Part shown: positions 15,949 to 33,754 of the stretch, piece after piece
Numbering within the stretch: position 1 is the first letter of the stretch
How the letters are laid out: each line of letters opens with the position of its first letter
The notes under the pieces: model-generated
Told to the model about the DNA's origin: nothing
Database searches by the model: none
The model's input: only the letters and a program-made list of their open reading frames with translations
Position numbers and translations under genes: made by a program
Assembly (NCBI GenBank): GCA_027035765.1
Contig: JALVUD010000020.1
Location: 1-33,754 of the forward strand
Direction of reading: 5' to 3'
From: Campylobacteraceae bacterium
GTDB taxonomy: Bacteria; Campylobacterota; Campylobacteria; Campylobacterales; Sulfurovaceae
DNA: 33,754 bases

Positions 15949-16995
15949 CTAGGCTTTGCCTTTGGCCGACTGGATGGAGTGGATATAGCGGTAGTCGATG
16001 GCGATCTTCTTCTCCTTCGGGAGAGCCCGGGTGAGACGTTCCAGCATCCCTTCGAAGTCCTCAAAAAGATAGTTGGCCATGGAGCCGGGGATGGGGTTGA
16101 TCTCGTTGAGATAGACCTCGGACCCCACGACAAAAAAGTCACAGCGGATCAGACTCCCCCGAAAAAGAGGATCGTAGATCTTTTTGAAAGCCGTTTCCAG
16201 CTTTTCCTTAAGCGGAGCATCGATGACCGCCTCCCTCACCCGGGAGTCCCGGGAGAAGTCCCGGTACTTCTTGTCAAAATCGAGAAACTCCTCTTTTTGG
16301 GGCTCCTCTACCAGGGAGAGCTCCCAGGCGGAGGTTTTGCAGCCGGCCAGGTTGTATTCGACGATCCCTTCGACAAAGGGCTCCACAATCACCTGCTCGT
16401 CAAACTCAAAGGCCACATCCAGTGCGTAATCCAGCTCCGACGTCTCCCGGACCACACTGACGCCGATGGAGCTGCCCAGATGCACCGGCTTGACGATCAG
16501 GGGAAAATCCAGATCTACCGTGCGTTCTCCCCCCTTCTGCAGCAGGCGATACTCCAGGGTCTCGATTCCCAGCGAGTGGGCCAGGAGTTTGGTGTTGAGC
16601 TTGCTGTAGCTCAACACCGAAGCCTCGATCCTCGGGCCGATGTAGGGGACGGCGAAAAACTCCATCATCCCCGCGATCTTGCCGTCTTCGCCGTCACGGC
16701 CGTGGATCAGATTGAGCAGCACGTCGAAGGCCACCGGCTTGCGCCCGCCCAGCAATCCTCCGGCGGCGAAGAAACCGCCGTGTTCCAGGGTCAGCTTCTT
16801 TCCTTTTTTATAGTCACCGGAACTGAAAGTCTTGGAAGTCATCTTTTCGCCGTCGATCAGATAGAACTCCCGTTCGCTGTCGACAAAGATAAAGAGGAGT
16901 GACGATCGCTTCAGAACCTTTTTGAGGGTGATAGCACTGACGATGCTGATCTCATGCTCGAAACTCGATCCGCCGAAGAGAATGGCCAGGGTCAT
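15949..16995 (-). CDS. ddl: D-alanine--D-alanine ligase
   Basis: A 348-aa ATP-grasp enzyme making D-Ala-D-Ala for peptidoglycan in the cytoplasm. Motifs: LFGGSSFEHEISIVSA at the N terminus, NLIHGRDGEDGKIAG, LIVKPVHLGSSIGVSVV (ATP-binding loop) and metal-binding YLNEINPIPGSMANYLFED near the C terminus. Length is normal for the family. The AAAGG ribosome site is about 8 bases from the ATG. It is the last of a minus-strand group with the ComEA-like gene upstream. Confidence 0.97.
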   Translation of the reverse strand: MTLAILFGGSSFEHEISIVSAITLKKVLKRSSLLFIFVDSEREFYLIDGEKMTSKTFSSGDYKKGKKLTLEHGGFFAAGGLLGGRKPVAFDVLLNLIHGRDGEDGKIAGMMEFFAVPYIGPRIEASVLSYSKLNTKLLAHSLGIETLEYRLLQKGGERTVDLDFPLIVKPVHLGSSIGVSVVRETSELDYALDVAFEFDEQVIVEPFVEGIVEYNLAGCKTSAWELSLVEEPQKEEFLDFDKKYRDFSRDSRVREAVIDAPLKEKLETAFKKIYDPLFRGSLIRCDFFVVGSEVYLNEINPIPGSMANYLFEDFEGMLERLTRALPKEKKIAIDYRYIHSIQSAKGKA

Positions 16996-17121: not shown

Positions 17122-17781
17122 CTACTTCTTTTTCTTCTTATTCTTTTTTTTGTCGGAAGATTTTTTACCCTTTTTGGATCCACTCTTTTTCTTTGATTTG
17201 GCGGCCTCTTTCGCCTCTTTCTTCTTGGCTTTGGCCTCTTTTTTCTTTTCGCTGGCCTTGGCCCGGCTCTTTTTGGCCTTGGCCTGACTCTCTTTCATCT
17301 TGGCCTTGTCCTTCTTCAGCCGCTTCTCATCTTCTGCCACTTTTTTCTCAAGCTTGGCGGCTTTTTTGGTATCGCCGCTCTTTTTAGCCGCTTTCAGGGC
17401 CGCTTTGTCTTTCTTGAGTTTCTCCTTCTCCTTGGAGAGCTTCCCTTTCATCTTGTCAGCTTTGACCTTGGATTTCTCAGCCTTTTTGGCATGCTTTTTG
17501 GCATCCATACCTGCTTTTTTTGCCACACGCTTCTTCTGTTTGGCCTCGCTGACCTTGACGTTTTTGTAGACATTATCAGCGATTTCAGGCCCGATACCGG
17601 GGACCTGCATCAGATCTTCACGGTTTTTGATCCGATGTTTCTTGCGGTATTTGACGATGGCGGCGGCTTTGACCGGCCCGATCCCCTTGATGCTCATCAG
17701 CTCCTCCTGGGAGGCAGTCTGGGGGTTGAGGCCGAAGGCCAGGCCGATACTGAGGGTCAGAAGTACGAGAAGTTTTCTCAT
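17122..17781 (-). CDS. ComEA-like helix-hairpin-helix protein with long H1-like basic tail
   Basis: 219 aa from the ATG at 17781, which has AAAGGA upstream and begins a signal peptide (MRKLLVLLTLSIGLAFG). A longer frame to 17922 would bury that signal. Residues about 18-75 are a ComEA domain with two hairpin motifs, MSIKGIGPVKAA and MQVPGIGPEIAD, which bind the DNA backbone. From about residue 76 to the end the protein is almost only Lys, Ala, Glu, Asp and Ser, without aromatic residues, and ends in KKKNKKKKK. Short ComEA proteins act in DNA uptake at the outer face of the inner membrane; a DNA- or wall-binding role of the tail is inferred. A spurious frame is unlikely given the signal peptide and HhH motifs. 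Confidence 0.85.
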   Translation of the reverse strand: MRKLLVLLTLSIGLAFGLNPQTASQEELMSIKGIGPVKAAAIVKYRKKHRIKNREDLMQVPGIGPEIADNVYKNVKVSEAKQKKRVAKKAGMDAKKHAKKAEKSKVKADKMKGKLSKEKEKLKKDKAALKAAKKSGDTKKAAKLEKKVAEDEKRLKKDKAKMKESQAKAKKSRAKASEKKKEAKAKKKEAKEAAKSKKKSGSKKGKKSSDKKKNKKKKK

Positions 17782-17864: not shown

Positions 17865-18194
17865 TTAAATCAGCCAGTTCTGCATCCCAAAGCTCTCCTC
17901 GTTCACCGGCATCGACTTCCATCCGCCGCTTTCCAGCACCATGACTTTGCCGCCGAAATACCCCGCAGCGTATCGTTCGAAGTAAATGGGAAAGCCACCG
18001 GCCCGGAAAGCGGCGAAGATCTCCTCGGGATTCTCCGGATGCCGGTAGGAGGTAAAATTGAGTGAGTGGATCGCCCGCAGGGTCTCGTGCAGATTCTCAT
18101 TCCGGTGAAGACGGGGACTCAGGAGATACCAGGCGGGATAGCTGACGACAGGATCCTCCAGAAGTTCGTGAAGGTAAAGGCGGGATTTTTTCAT
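17865..18194 (-). CDS. Hypothetical protein, 109 aa
   Basis: I do not recognise a family. The protein (MKKSRLYLHELLEDPVVSYP...) is soluble, without signal or helix, and rich in aromatic residues, with motifs SLNFTSYRHPENPEEIFAAF and ESFGMQNWLI. It lies 56 bases downstream of carA on the same strand and ends 83 bases before the ComEA-like gene. The ribosome site is weak (AGAAG). Codon use is like its neighbours, which supports a real gene. Confidence 0.6.
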   Translation of the reverse strand: MKKSRLYLHELLEDPVVSYPAWYLLSPRLHRNENLHETLRAIHSLNFTSYRHPENPEEIFAAFRAGGFPIYFERYAAGYFGGKVMVLESGGWKSMPVNEESFGMQNWLI

Positions 18195-27930: not shown

Positions 27931-28785
27931 GCTAATGCATCACATCTTTGTCCGCTTGATAATCCTCTGTACCGTTGCCTGGTTAAGCCCCAGCACTTTA
28001 GCTATCCTGTGCTGAGAATACCCTTGTTGATAGGCATGGACGATCTGCCTGTTTCGCTCCTGCCTCTCATTGACCTCTTCAAACATTCTTCTCAGTTTGT
28101 CCATATCCGGTTCATTGTCAGTATCGGGCGCCTCCACCAGAGAAGCGGCCTTTTTCATCTCCTCCAATTGCGAAGCATCTATCTTGCTGTTGAGAAAAGC
28201 TCTGATCGCCTCCGTATCGTCCCGATAGTGTCGAACCACCCATGAGTCTGCCAGGCATTCTGGCACATTGTCCGTGTCCAGGAAATGACTGTATGAACTG
28301 TATGGATATTTTTCGAGTACCGGCACGATGTCGGCTTTGAGCGGATTCTGTTCTATATAGAGCATCAGGCTGTAGAGATAGGCTTCGTCGGTCACATACC
28401 ATGATTTATATCGCCCCTGCCACAGGTGCCCGGTTCTTTTATACTTTTTGTTGAAGTAAATGGCGTAATTCATATTGAGCTGCCGCATGAATTTCGAGAG
28501 ATTGGGTTGTGTGATCTCAATGAGCAGATGGTAGTGGTTGCTCATCAGGCAATAATTATGGATAGTGATACGGTGGTTTTTGGCATACATGCACATCAGC
28601 GTTTCGAACTTTTCATAATCCTCTTTCTCTTTGAAGACAACTCTTTGCTCCACACCTCGGTTGACGATATGGTAAAAGCCTGCTATTTCGATACGGGGCT
28701 TTCTCGGCATCTATGGCTCCTGTATTTTTCTTCTGCTAGAAAGAGAATAGCGAAAAAGAACTTAGCATTAGCATCACCTGACCCC
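27918..28785. mobile_element. RAYT (REP-associated transposase) element with 21-bp terminal inverted repeats
   Basis: A single-gene element. Its ends are perfect 21-bp inverted repeats: 27918-27938 starts GGGGTCAGGTGATGC and 28765-28785 ends GCATCACCTGACCCC. The left end forms a hairpin GTGATGC-TAAT-GCATCAC (27926-27943) that overlaps the transposase stop codon, as in REP-type recognition hairpins. The right end cuts into the duplicated haemagglutinin fragment. Confidence 0.85.
27940..28710 (-). CDS. REP-associated tyrosine transposase (Y1_Tnp, RAYT)
   Basis: 256 aa. It starts MPRKPRIEIAGFYHIVNRGV, the usual opening of this family. The HUH metal site is H59-Y60-H61 in SNHYHLLIE. The catalytic tyrosine is within residues 111-118 (YLYSLMLYIEQNPLKA), and HLWQGRYKSWYV is also conserved. 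A C-terminal helix-turn-helix (QGYSQHRIAKVLGLNQATVQRIIKR) adds DNA binding. Such enzymes nick single-stranded REP hairpins. AGGAG is 7 bases before the ATG. The frame is intact. Confidence 0.93.
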   Translation of the reverse strand: MPRKPRIEIAGFYHIVNRGVEQRVVFKEKEDYEKFETLMCMYAKNHRITIHNYCLMSNHYHLLIEITQPNLSKFMRQLNMNYAIYFNKKYKRTGHLWQGRYKSWYVTDEAYLYSLMLYIEQNPLKADIVPVLEKYPYSSYSHFLDTDNVPECLADSWVVRHYRDDTEAIRAFLNSKIDASQLEEMKKAASLVEAPDTDNEPDMDKLRRMFEEVNERQERNRQIVHAYQQGYSQHRIAKVLGLNQATVQRIIKRTKM

Positions 28786-29035
28786 TATCTTTCCTGAAGA
28801 GTCCGCCCTCACCGAAGCCCGGGATCCCCTCACCCAGGCTCGCCATCATCGAGGCGCTGCCCACCTCGAAGAAGGCCCGGTCACTCAGATCCTGCGTCAG
28901 TTCCCCCAGCAGCACATCCTGGAACCGGGCGCCGTAGAGGGCGCTTTGCACTCCGGCGTGGGCCAGGGCGTGGCGGGGGATGTTGGCGAAGGTGAGGGTT
29001 AGGAGGAGAAGGAGGGGGAGGAGGAGTCTTTTCAT
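28736..29035 (-). pseudogene. Broken duplicate of the haemagglutinin gene behind a signal peptide
   Basis: The 99-codon frame is a chimera. It opens with a clean signal peptide (MKRLLLPLLLLLTLTFANI), then continues with about 55 residues (HALAHAGVQSALYGARFQDV ... EGIPGFGEGG) nearly identical to residues encoded at 31961-32133 in the large gene. DNA identity over about 173 bp is high, with about 6 mismatches by eye. The frame then runs into the right end of the RAYT element and stops. It is probably the 5' stump of an orphan toxin cassette whose toxin was lost. No good ribosome site is seen. Confidence 0.75.
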
Positions 29036-29049
29036 ACTAGGTAGGATCG

Positions 29050-29508
29050 TTATGTGTCCTCATCACCGTAGTACCACTCCAAAAAGTCATAGAAGCTGTT
29101 GAACATCGGCTTGAGTTTACCTGCGTTTAACTCTTCGAGTTGGCTCCAATCGACACTATAGACCGCGTCTGTCTCTTTGTCATAAAAGTAACTATGCTCT
29201 CCCTCTGGGGAAGAGATCTGCAAGTAGCGCTTACCTATTTGAGGGTATTGGGCGTAGAGGGGGTGTGGGTTTTTGTAGTTTTCTAGTATTTCTTCTAAAT
29301 CGAATAATTGTCCTCCTTTGCCCATTGGACCGATTACAAAAGAATAAAAATCAACAAAAGAAGAATCGGTATTTTTTATACCTAGCGCTTTTTTAAACCA
29401 TTCTCTTGACCCTTTTGTTAATTCTAAAGTTTTTTTTCCAAAATCAAATTCGTCTTCAAAATATGAATTGCTTTTTAAAATCTTATCAATTACTTTTTTT
29501 GAAAGCAT
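29050..29508 (-). CDS. SMI1/KNR4 (SUKH) family immunity protein
   Basis: 152 aa, acidic and soluble, with SUKH features: FSFVIGPMGKGGQLFDLEEILENY-type middle (VIGPMGKGGQLFDLEEILEN), RYLQISSPEGEHSYFYD, DAVYSVDW and the ending NSFYDFLEWYYGDEDT. SUKH proteins commonly neutralise nuclease toxins of polymorphic toxin systems. It starts two bases after the stop of the nuclease-toxin frame, with AAAGGGA as ribosome site, so it is the partner of that toxin. AT-rich, unlike the 58% or so GC surroundings. Confidence 0.82.
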   Translation of the reverse strand: MLSKKVIDKILKSNSYFEDEFDFGKKTLELTKGSREWFKKALGIKNTDSSFVDFYSFVIGPMGKGGQLFDLEEILENYKNPHPLYAQYPQIGKRYLQISSPEGEHSYFYDKETDAVYSVDWSQLEELNAGKLKPMFNSFYDFLEWYYGDEDT

Positions 29509-29510
29509 TT

Positions 29511-29936
29511 CTAGTTCCCTTTCTTCATTTCCAAATTAAATCTTTCTTTATTTATATACTGTCTATCTTTGCCCCATTCTGTGTGATCAACAGGATTATT
29601 CGGGTTTTTATTCTTTCCATAGGGATGGAGGTTGATATAGTCGCTTTTGTGCTTTTGCGACTCCAGCTCCAAAATCGGCCCGTCAGCATTTTGATGCAAA
29701 TGGTGTTGTTCTGTTGAAACTGGTTTTCCATTTTCATCACGAACATATGGATTGTTACCTCTTTTAATCCATTCTCTATTAGTAACTATTTCACCTTTAG
29801 GTGTTCTAAACTTCAAATCCAAATCAATCTCCCTCCCGTAATGGTCATACACCCGGCCGCTCGGTGCCGTAAAGGTGCCCTTTGTGAGGACCTTGCCTTC
29901 CGGTGTTATGATGTTACCATCTTTGTTCTTTCTGTA
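29511..29936 (-). CDS. Orphan C-terminal nuclease toxin (HNH/EndoVII, LHH-like), no proper start
   Basis: The open frame runs from just after a TAA at 29937-29939 to the TAG at 29511. The only candidate start within it for the last 113 codons is a GTG at 29852, without a ribosome site, and coding text continues in frame upstream (KNKDGNIITPEGKVLTKGTF). The nuclease part carries STEQHHLHQNADGPILELES, QKHKSDYINLHPYG and NPVDHTEWGK, the His pattern of LHH/HNH-EndoVII toxins that cleave DNA. It lacks its delivery protein and pretoxin domain, so it resembles a stored (orphan) CdiA-CT cassette. It may be silent unless recombined. Confidence 0.7.
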   Translation of the reverse strand, partial: YRKNKDGNIITPEGKVLTKGTFTAPSGRVYDHYGREIDLDLKFRTPKGEIVTNREWIKRGNNPYVRDENGKPVSTEQHHLHQNADGPILELESQKHKSDYINLHPYGKNKNPNNPVDHTEWGKDRQYINKERFNLEMKKGN

Positions 29937-30289: not shown

Positions 30290-30532
30290 TCATCTTCCAA
30301 ACCAATAATACCAATTTTGTTCAATAGATTCTTCTTCCCTGGAGAGTTTTATGCCAAGTTTTCCTTTAAAACTAAGCCAAACTAAGAAAGCAGACTTGTT
30401 ATTATTTTCTTTAAGTAAACATTCAATTGCATCTACAGCAAAAGAGCTTCTCTTATCTTTTAACTTATCTCTTATAAGCTTTCTAAATGCCTCTTTATCT
30501 TGTTCATATCTTTCATTGTCTATCATCTTCAT
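30290..30532 (-). CDS. Candidate immunity protein of the large toxin gene
   Basis: 80 aa, charged and soluble (MKMIDNERYEQDKEAFRKLI ... EQNWYYWFGR). Family unknown. Its ATG overlaps the stop of the large gene (ATGA), with AAAGGAG 8 bases upstream inside the toxin's last codons. A small gene coupled to the toxin end is the standard immunity position; the role is inferred from that alone. Confidence 0.65.
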   Translation of the reverse strand: MKMIDNERYEQDKEAFRKLIRDKLKDKRSSFAVDAIECLLKENNNKSAFLVWLSFKGKLGIKLSREEESIEQNWYYWFGR

Positions 30533-33500
30533 TTCTTTATCTCCTTTAACTTAAACTTTTTTATTGGTGTATTTGTGATAGCTTGAGTCGCTCCACCTTC
30601 ACCAAATCGTAAATCTGGATCAGGATGATCCATTCCAAAATCTTTAGTTATAGGTTCATAATGCTCTGCAGTACCCCATTCACCTTTAGGCACACGAATA
30701 TCGTCAATAATCTGCAAAGTATCGAACTCCCCATAATGTGAAGGTACATAAGGAATCTGGAGTTCACTTTTTATCTGCAAGGGGCTTTTTCCGTCAAGGT
30801 TATCAAAGGTAAAGTATGTATCTCCGTTTCTTGACATAATATTGCCTTTTTTTGCCTCTTTTACGGCAAGACCGCCGATAGCTCTATACCCGTTAGAAGG
30901 TATCACCTCACCGTTGGGCTTCACATAGAAATCAGCGGTAGAGACCTTACCCAGTTTGCCCAGTTTGCTCAACCCCTTGCCCACGCCGCCGATGATCTTG
31001 GTGGCACCCCCCAGGGTGGCCACGCCCTCGAAGAGGGTCTCATCCACCATATAGCGTCCCGCATCCGCGGCGGTGGGATCACGGTAGAGCTCATTGAGCA
31101 GATCGGCGGTGCCGTCGGTGTTGCGGGCGATCTCTCCGGAGCTTCCCGCGGCGTAGGCGCCGTCGGTGACGGTCTGTACGATCCCGCCGACGAAGGCTTG
31201 GGCGCCCGCTTCGGTATCGGCGGCGATTTGGGAAGCCGGGGTGTTTTGGAGGTAGGCGTAGAGTGCTTCGATCCCTTCGGGGGTCTTCCGGAGTCCTTCC
31301 CAGAGCGCCTCGGCCTTTTGGATACCCCGGCGTTTGAGGTCGGCGAGATAGAGGTCCTTGAGGGGGGTGGGATCGGCGTCGGGGGTGTAGGCACGGTAGA
31401 AGCCGCTCAGGGTCGCCTTCTGTTCAGGGGAGAGGTCTTTGATCCTGGTGACGCTGTCTCCGTAGCGGGTGATGGTCGGGTCGTAGAACTCCGCTTCGCT
31501 TTTGACTTCGAAGAGGTGCTCTTTGTTTGTACGCAGGAAGGCTTCGGCCTCTTTATCGGTTTGGGTGCCCAGTTTGAGCGACCAGCCTTTGTCGATATCC
31601 CGCAGGGCCTGTTCGGTCAGTTTGCTTGTGGCCTCTTCCAGGGGGAGGTGACGGGCGGCGGCGAACTCTTCCGCATGCTTTTCGATCCACTCTATCTCCT
31701 TCTGGTGCAACTGCCGGTTGTTCGCCTCGGCGCTGAGGGCCACGGCATAGCCGATCTCGGCGCCCCGGTCACCGCCGGCGATGGCTCCGGCGGTGATCCC
31801 GATGAGGGAGGAGACGAAGCGCTGGGTCGGCTTGTCGGCGCCCCGGCTCAGGGGGGCCAGGAGCTCCCGGGCGCCGGCGGCCGCGGCCCCGGCGGCGAAG
31901 CGGCCGCCCATGAGCTCGGCGGCTACTCCGCCGGTGAGGCCGTGGAAGAGGACCTTGAGGAGTCCCCCCTCACTAAAGCCCGGGATCCCCTCACCCAGGC
32001 TCGCCATCATCGAGGCGCTGCCCACCTCGAAGAAGGCCCGGTCACTCAGATCCTGCGTCAGTTCCCCCAGCAGCACATCCTGGAACCGGGCGCCGGAGAG
32101 GGCGCTTTGCAGTCCGGCGTGGGCCAGGGCATGCGCGCCTGTTTCCAGCAAGGGAGCGGAGGCGAGGCTGTCGTGGATCTGCAGATCCACCCCCGCACTC
32201 AGTCCGGCCCCCAGGGCGGTGCGGGCCAGGGAGCCGGCATCGAGGTGCAGGCCGTTGCCCGTCAGGGCCGCCTCCAGGGTCGCGGCGACGATCCGGCGGG
32301 TGACGGCGTTGACCGAGGCGGCCACCGCCCGCTGCAGCACCGCGTTGCCGATCCCGGCACTCAGGGCGTTGCCCACTCCCGGGGTGATGAAGGTGGCCAC
32401 CGCCTGGACGATGAGCGCGCCGGTGGGCGAGAGCATCCGGTGGGTCTCGTTCCATCGGCGGTTTTTCAGCAGCGCCCGCTCTGTGCTGACTCCCGCCGGC
32501 AGGAGATCATCGGTGGTGCTGAGGCGGTTGCCCTTTAGCGCCATTCCTCGCAGACGCAGGCTCTCCCGGGCGCTGATCGCGGAGCCCACCGCCTGCTCGG
32601 TGACACTCCCCTCGTCATGGATCGTGCGGATCAGCAGGCCGCTGTCATCGGTGTGCAGGGCGTGGGCGGTGCGCTCTTTGCCCTCCTTGAGCCGCACCGA
32701 TTCCACCTGCAGGTCGACGGTCTTGGCGCCGAGGGTCGAGCTCTCCAGGCTCAGGCGCCGGCCGCCCACCCGCAGAGAGCTGCCGGCGGAGGCCGCGGCA
32801 CCCCGCAGCCGCTCGGCGGAGCGCTGTTCGCTCAGGGAGGAGCGCAGCAGCCCGCCCAGGGCGGAGTGTTCCTCTTCGTGGCTGGAGGCCACCGTATAGC
32901 CCAGGCTCGTCAAACGGATATCACCCCCCTCGGAGCGCAGGTGCATGGAGCGCTCCGCGCTCAGATCGGCCGCCTGGATCGTGAGGTCTTTGCCGGCGGC
33001 GATGCTCAGATCACCGGCGGCGATCTCGGTGCCCTTCACCGACTCCCTCAAAGCGCTGTCGGTGACCGACCATTTGGAGAGGAAGCCCTTGCCGGTGAAG
33101 TGCTCGGTGTGGAAATCCTGCTCCAGTACCGCCGAGAGATTCACCGCTCCCGCCGCCGCCAGATCGACGGAATCGGCGGCGAGACGGGCCGCCTCCAGAC
33201 TCAGGTCTCCGCCCGAACGCACCCGGATCCCCTCCGCGGCTTCCAGGGTGCTGCGCCGACGGCGCAGGCTCTCGCCCCGGGCATAGCCCTCGGGCAGATC
33301 GTAGTCGTATCCCCGGCTCCGCGCCAGGGTCCTGATCTCGACCCCCCGGCCCGCGGCCAGGTCGATCCCCGCCCCGCTCTTGACGTCGGCGCCCACGCTG
33401 ACGATCCGGTCGGCCGCCGCCGCCCGCAGCCCACCCGAACCGGCTTCGATCACCGCCGCCCGGCCCGCCAGGGTGTAGTGCTCCGTCCCCAGATCGTGCC

Positions 33501-33754
33501 GGAGCGTGCGCTCCCGGCCGTCGGTCACGTTCAGCAGCGACCCGCCCACAGAGAGCAGATCCACCCCGGTGCCCCGGATCGTCCCCGAGAGGTTGAGCAG
33601 ATCCCCCGACGCCACCGCCGTCAGGCTCCCGCCCGCGGCCAGGGTGCCCCCCAGGTTGAGCAGGCTCCCCGCCGTCAGGCTCAGATCCCGCGTCGCCGCC
33701 AGGGTCCCGCCGTTGGCCAGGCGCTTGCCGACCTGCAGCTCCACCCGATCGGCG
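30529..33754 (-). CDS. CdiA/filamentous-haemagglutinin-like polymorphic toxin (N-terminal part outside window)
   Basis: More than 1070 residues; the frame is open to the right edge, so the secretion domain is missing. The order read is: haemagglutinin repeats (GGTLAATRDLSLTAGSLLNL, LAAGRGVEIRTLARS, VDLQVESVRL), then a DUF637-like segment (MLSPTGALIVQAVATFITPG ... ALAHAGLQSALSGARFQDVL), then a pretoxin region with a degenerate VENN-type motif ([16 protein letters not shown], about 31,700-31,740). A linker follows and a C-terminal toxin of about 130 residues below about 30,930, where base composition falls sharply. The toxin has PSNGYRAIGG, DTYFTFD, FDTLQIIDDIRVPKGEWG and GEGGATQAIT. The R...YFT...GGATQ pattern suggests an ADP-ribosyltransferase or NAD-glycohydrolase fold, but this is inference. 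Two-partner secretion is expected; no transporter gene is in view. Confidence 0.85.
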   Translation of the reverse strand, partial: ADRVELQVGKRLANGGTLAATRDLSLTAGSLLNLGGTLAAGGSLTAVASGDLLNLSGTIRGTGVDLLSVGGSLLNVTDGRERTLRHDLGTEHYTLAGRAAVIEAGSGGLRAAAADRIVSVGADVKSGAGIDLAAGRGVEIRTLARSRGYDYDLPEGYARGESLRRRRSTLEAAEGIRVRSGGDLSLEAARLAADSVDLAAAGAVNLSAVLEQDFHTEHFTGKGFLSKWSVTDSALRESVKGTEIAAGDLSIAAGKDLTIQAADLSAERSMHLRSEGGDIRLTSLGYTVASSHEEEHSALGGLLRSSLSEQRSAERLRGAAASAGSSLRVGGRRLSLESSTLGAKTVDLQVESVRLKEGKERTAHALHTDDSGLLIRTIHDEGSVTEQAVGSAISARESLRLRGMALKGNRLSTTDDLLPAGVSTERALLKNRRWNETHRMLSPTGALIVQAVATFITPGVGNALSAGIGNAVLQRAVAASVNAVTRRIVAATLEAALTGNGLHLDAGSLARTALGAGLSAGVDLQIHDSLASAPLLETGAHALAHAGLQSALSGARFQDVLLGELTQDLSDRAFFEVGSASMMASLGEGIPGFSEGGLLKVLFHGLTGGVAAELMGGRFAAGAAAAGARELLAPLSRGADKPTQRFVSSLIGITAGAIAGGDRGAEIGYAVALSAEANNRQLHQKEIEWIEKHAEEFAAARHLPLEEATSKLTEQALRDIDKGWSLKLGTQTDKEAEAFLRTNKEHLFEVKSEAEFYDPTITRYGDSVTRIKDLSPEQKATLSGFYRAYTPDADPTPLKDLYLADLKRRGIQKAEALWEGLRKTPEGIEALYAYLQNTPASQIAADTEAGAQAFVGGIVQTVTDGAYAAGSSGEIARNTDGTADLLNELYRDPTAADAGRYMVDETLFEGVATLGGATKIIGGVGKGLSKLGKLGKVSTADFYVKPNGEVIPSNGYRAIGGLAVKEAKKGNIMSRNGDTYFTFDNLDGKSPLQIKSELQIPYVPSHYGEFDTLQIIDDIRVPKGEWGTAEHYEPITKDFGMDHPDPDLRFGEGGATQAITNTPIKKFKLKEIKK

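Follow-up and report, generated by a model that had tools for sequence, protein, structure and literature searches.

A ComEA-like protein with a polycationic C-terminal tail and a predicted signal peptide in Campylobacteria

The ComEA proteins described from Gram-negative bacteria, including V. cholerae ComEA, N. gonorrhoeae ComE and C. jejuni Cj0011c, share a signal peptide and one double helix–hairpin–helix (HhH) domain, and have been described as a stand-alone DNA-binding domain. V. cholerae ComEA requires its GIG hairpin and residue K63, which models place in the minor groove (PMC3879209). In Gram-positive ComEA (B. subtilis, G. stearothermophilus; 8dss, 8dfk) the HhH region is joined to an additional domain for oligomerisation, which lies N-terminal to it together with a membrane anchor. 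The oligomerisation domain brings about DNA condensation with a pull of ~0.1 pN (PMC13168374), whereas Gram-negative ComEA, as a lone DNA-binding domain, is held to lack condensation (PMC13168374, PMC9747964). In current models Gram-negative ComEA is a passive ratchet consisting of a single small domain, and active condensation is assigned to the Gram-positive proteins.

The protein considered here is encoded in the window, by which we mean the whole 33,754-nt stretch of DNA that was analysed. It shares the GIG hairpin and a K63-equivalent lysine with Gram-negative ComEA, but adds a selected basic tail of 142 residues; we found no paper on a lysine-rich ComEA tail. The Gram-positive two-domain architecture is absent, with the HhH domain beginning directly after the predicted signal peptide. 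Unlike Gram-positive ComEA, the window protein lacks an anchor, and its extra part is C-terminal, polycationic, predicted to form a helical hairpin and without detectable homology. By analogy, the tailed protein would be a diderm counterpart to the Gram-positive two-domain ComEA.

The gene product and its HhH core

The open reading frame runs on the minus strand from 17781 to 17122, exactly within the limits given by an earlier sequence-only reading (Table 1). A longer product of 266 aa could start from an ATG at 17922, but the 219-aa start is preferred because of its AAGGAAAG Shine–Dalgarno sequence, the signal peptide that follows and conservation of the start in relatives. By eye, residues 1–17 look like a Sec signal peptide with textbook n, h and c regions, and the N-termini of relatives are similar; export is predicted on this basis. 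The HhH pair of the earlier reading is borne out, with Pfam placing a double HhH of ComEA type after the signal-like N-terminus.

Table 1. Features of the window, with residue ranges of the 219-aa protein where they apply
Feature	Coordinates	Strand	Basis
Gene for ComEA-like HhH protein of 219 aa, predicted to be exported, with polycationic C-terminal tail	17122..17781	-	ORF and translation, Pfam HHH/HHH_3, dN/dS
Predicted Sec signal peptide, residues 1–17 (MRKLLVLLTLSIGLAFG, followed by LNPQ)	17731..17781	-	Sequence reading, comparable N-terminus of relatives
Double HhH core, residues 18–77	17551..17730	-	Profile and structure matches, alignment, AlphaFold pLDDT ~90
Polycationic tail, residues 78–219, net +47	17125..17550	-	Composition; without Pfam match
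Predicted tail helix 1, residues 79–135, stripe A101 A108 L115 L122 L129	17377..17547	-	AlphaFold, heptad test
Predicted tail helix 2, residues 138–200, stripe A141 V148 L155 M162	17182..17370	-	AlphaFold, heptad test
Disordered Lys/Ser/Gly end, residues 201–219, net +11	17125..17181	-	Low pLDDT, composition
Upstream neighbour, 109 aa, no Pfam/NCBIfam match; also in L003, L004, L006	17865..18194	-	
Downstream neighbour, D-alanine–D-alanine ligase (ddl)	15949..16995	-	Profile matches
IS200-like (Y1) transposase with C-terminal HTH, adjoining haemagglutinin locus	27940..28710	-	
Fragment repeating pretoxin region of haemagglutinin-repeat protein	28736..29852	-	
Small possible immunity gene	29050..29508	-	
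LHH-nuclease module (PF14411)	29511..29852	-	
Large haemagglutinin-repeat protein (PF13332)	30529..33744	-	

A profile search of the protein matches Pfam HHH (2e-14) and HHH_3 (3.1e-14) over residues 18–70; the HHH_3 score of 53.3 bits, well over the cut-off of 27, identifies a tandem HhH. In the PDB the ComEA entries 8dss (5.5e-8) and 8dfk (9.7e-7) are matched, with coverage limited to residues 18–77. The NCBIfam model for the ComEA HhH region, TIGR00426, gives 2.4e-12 and 46.7 bits, which is under its curated cut-off of 53.1. Four tail-less relatives pass this cut-off (56–81 bits) and two other tailed ones fail it (41 and 37 bits), and ‘ComEA-like’ is therefore the safe name. The full-length Gram-positive model TIGR01259 (comE) scores 45.6 bits, far from its cut-off of 152.35.

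Positions G33 and G35 of the GIG hairpin (G33–G35), together with K38, are invariant in a 16-row core alignment, and G35 and K38 occupy the places of the V. cholerae GIG hairpin and K63. The K63-equivalent lysine is found in at least 100 of 106 homologues. The neighbouring K62-equivalent position is valine in the window clade, unlike in the Gram-negative ComEA proteins compared. We considered whether the tail compensates for loss of the K62-equivalent lysine, and rejected this idea on finding no association in independent pairs.

Composition, constraint and predicted fold of the tail

The tail contains 63 lysines (44%) but only 3 arginines and 19 Asp/Glu residues, giving a calculated pI of 10.4, and it ends in poly-lysine (KKKNKKKKK), as had been read from the sequence. 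Pfam identifies no known domain in it. Across 57 tails of at least 30 aa, lysine averages 43% and stays near that value from 28 to 60% G+C (Spearman +0.23, p 0.09), whereas alanine rises (+0.69) and serine falls (-0.60) with G+C. The filler residues track base composition, unlike the lysines, and composition bias therefore does not explain the tail.

Relative to the closest relative (L003), the tail shows 40 synonymous and 25 non-synonymous differences (dN/dS 0.09). Resolved by part, dN/dS is 0.03 in the HhH core, 0.03 in the predicted tail hairpin and 0.17 in the remaining tail. The tail is therefore translated and constrained, though more loosely than the core. Purifying selection on the tail, and its occurrence in close relatives too, show that it is more than a chance addition. 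These values bear directly on the possibility that the tail is functionless low-complexity sequence produced by replication slippage in AAA/AAG tracts. Poly-A tracts of up to 8 nt, the short 9–21-bp periodicities found by TRF and the spread of homologue tail lengths from 0 to 142 residues would all suit slippage; yet TRF finds no single expanded repeat, AAA and AAG codons are used equally (32 to 31), a heptad stripe is conserved, all 62 of 62 family tails are positively charged and dN/dS is 0.09–0.17. Slippage as the origin of a functionless tail is thus very improbable, and we reject a slippage or composition artefact on the grounds of dN/dS and the G+C-independent lysine content.

An AlphaFold model based on 25 family sequences has a mean pLDDT of 83.5, rising to 94–98 over roughly residues 111–160, and predicts two helices joined by a short turn (Table 1). 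The run was of the monomer only, and helix may be over-predicted in sequence this rich in Lys, Ala and Glu. Independently of AlphaFold, alignment reveals a seven-residue hydrophobic stripe common to the eight clade members, which also share invariant L122, D125, L129, A132, D137 and A149. In a heptad test, a single register takes up 53 of the 74 hydrophobic cells, a count not reached in any of 10,000 permutations. Comparison of the tail fold with the PDB returns nothing at E<=0.001 and only generic coiled coils. In a protein from a sister genus (L066), the tail carries a similar charge but is predicted to be disordered, with pLDDT mostly <55; the charge of the tail is common to the sister genera and the predicted fold is not.

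The description of the tail as histone H1-like holds only for composition. Like H1-type tails it is rich in Lys, Ala and Ser with few Arg, but it has no homology to them, is predicted to be exported and, in the window clade, is predicted to form a helical hairpin with a heptad stripe.

Distribution of the tail and genomic context

A match to the protein is present in 125 of the 150 genomes of the window family, a few of the matches being larger HhH proteins. Among 106 ComEA-like homologues extracted from this family, 62 carry a lysine-rich tail 25 aa or more in length, every one with net positive charge, and the window tail is the longest. The sequence-only reading had proposed looking for the same fusion in relatives; it is found over the full length in close relatives (89% and 69% identity), so tail absence from close relatives, which that reading had counted as evidence against itself, does not apply. 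Its statement that ComEA usually stops after the HhH domain is correct for Gram-negative bacteria (PMC9747964) but not for the window lineage, in which many of the proteins are tailed. A core tree, built from a short alignment and with many unresolved forks, requires at least 12 gains or losses of the tail.

Beyond the window family, tailed proteins occur in the class in families f9 (L121, L128) and f4 (L156, net +24), and most examples from genus g13 of family f3 have tails of 71–115 aa with a weaker net charge of +9 to +19. The examples examined from f2 and f7 are tail-less. Judged from these homologues, the tail is a lineage trait of Campylobacteria. We found no plasmid-borne close copies. 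Some genomes of the window's genus (G010, G020, G038 and G076; loci L094, L106, L095 and L055) encode another ComEA-like protein, which has a short tail or none and branches separately; G020 carries both types, its tail-less copy having no readable in-frame start.

On the minus strand the gene order is carA, the 109-aa protein gene, the ComEA-like gene and ddl; the 109-aa protein is kept at this place in close relatives only. In other genera the gene is flanked either by UDP-sugar dehydratase-like or MraY-like and glutamyl-tRNA synthetase-like genes, or by FtsZ-like and thioredoxin-like genes (names by sequence reading). Contexts therefore vary by genus, and no conserved competence operon surrounds the gene. 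Elsewhere in the window, the haemagglutinin-repeat genes resemble a locus for contact-dependent inhibition that includes an orphan toxin module, and the adjoining transposase is probably REP-associated.

The rest of a DNA-uptake machine is encoded in the genome: ComEC, DprA, a secretin, PilB/GspE-type ATPases and PilC/GspF. On contig C5 the genes for a secretin (best match MshL), an AAA ATPase, a TPR protein, PilB/GspE and PilC/GspF are contiguous, a cluster that we take, as a lead, to resemble the C. jejuni cts transformation genes. No other ComEA-like gene was found in the genome at E<=10, the weak match at 0.146 being a RuvA-like ORF. Co-occurrence with ComEC is uninformative because both genes are nearly universal in the window family; among well-assembled genomes both are absent only from G073.

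A separate observation concerns rRNA operons. Families f3 and f6, together with genus g9 of the window family, have a ComEA-like gene just downstream of, and co-oriented with, a 5S rRNA gene, at about 90–520 nt in many examples and about 0.8–1.25 kb in some. Such loci are L147–L149 (G261), L150–L151 (G156), L152–L153 (G171), L154–L155 (G337), L119, L157–L160, L163, L165 and L137, with L019, L022, L025, L027, L031 and L032 in the window family. The genes are often present in 2–4 copies, identical where compared and matching the rRNA operons: three 3.2–3.3-kb copies of 23S, 5S and ComEA-like gene in G261 are 100% identical, and the protein is the same in two or more copies within each of G156, G171 and G337. 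In f6, the stretch between 5S and the ComEA-like gene shows, by eye, a hairpin resembling a terminator and a TATAAT-like box, so the gene probably has its own promoter while sharing rRNA-operon dosage. The window copy has no rRNA nearby, and we found no paper on ComEA beside rRNA operons.

Possible roles of the tailed protein

We propose, with moderate confidence, that the protein serves the cell as its periplasmic DNA receptor of ComEA type, to which a polycationic module has been added that would strengthen DNA retention and possibly condense DNA. After export, the HhH core would hold double-stranded DNA drawn through the secretin by the pilus machinery. The +47 tail could make a second, non-specific contact with phosphates of the same or another duplex, raising affinity and lengthening residence, and in the window clade the helical hairpin may pair with other copies. 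Retention and partial condensation would prevent back-diffusion of DNA before ComEC takes over, the tail doing electrostatically the job of the Gram-positive oligomerisation domain. In support of this proposal, positive charge is kept despite the differing predicted fold in sister genera. Against it, the gene is not adjacent to competence genes. In C. jejuni, the best-studied relative, a ComE knock-out lowers transformation by only 1.3 log10 and hardly affects DNA uptake, and the gene is missing from C. coli and C. lari (PMC10046745); by analogy, this dispensability for uptake may also count against a receptor role. The repeated gain and loss of tails means that they are not essential for uptake.

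The main rival is that the tail tethers an otherwise normal ComEA in the envelope, its lysine-rich chains binding anionic polymers (LPS phosphates, acidic peptidoglycan or polyphosphate) while the HhH domain alone binds DNA. We consider a tether unlikely: predicted export and a generic charge pattern without a conserved fold would fit it, as would the binding of Lys-rich stretches to other polyanions such as polyphosphate (PMC12077175), but Pfam recognises no envelope-binding domain in the tail, and DNA avidity is simpler because the core already binds a polyanion, DNA. It is also conceivable, though quite unlikely, that the exported protein binds DNA in a role outside transformation, for example extracellular DNA in biofilms or adhesion. 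The lack of linkage to competence genes and the small contribution of C. jejuni ComE to uptake (PMC10046745) are consistent with such a role, and HhH motifs of Pasteurellaceae ComE1 bind fibronectin as well as DNA (PMC2601033); however, all hallmark competence genes searched for are present and no other ComEA is. A cytoplasmic nucleoid protein whose hydrophobic N-terminus was mistaken for a signal peptide would account for the resemblance in composition to H1-like nucleoid proteins, but is highly improbable given the ComEA-type HhH pair and the signal-like N-terminal segment in homologues from several families.

Extending the proposal of a DNA receptor with a retention module, it is possible, though doubtful, that a diderm lineage has converted ComEA, otherwise a ratchet of one domain, into a DNA-condensing receptor with two parts. 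The polycation at its C-terminus, which in one clade would form an oligomerising helical hairpin, would bridge and pull DNA in a manner analogous to the separately evolved Gram-positive oligomerisation domain, and its dosage would rise with rRNA operons where the genes are adjacent. Set against the recent condensation model for Gram-positive ComEA, these proteins gain in interest. A widespread, selected polycationic addition in Campylobacterota offers natural material for testing whether uptake across an outer membrane is driven by condensation, and the existence of tailed and tail-less natural homologues with the same core allows a direct comparison.
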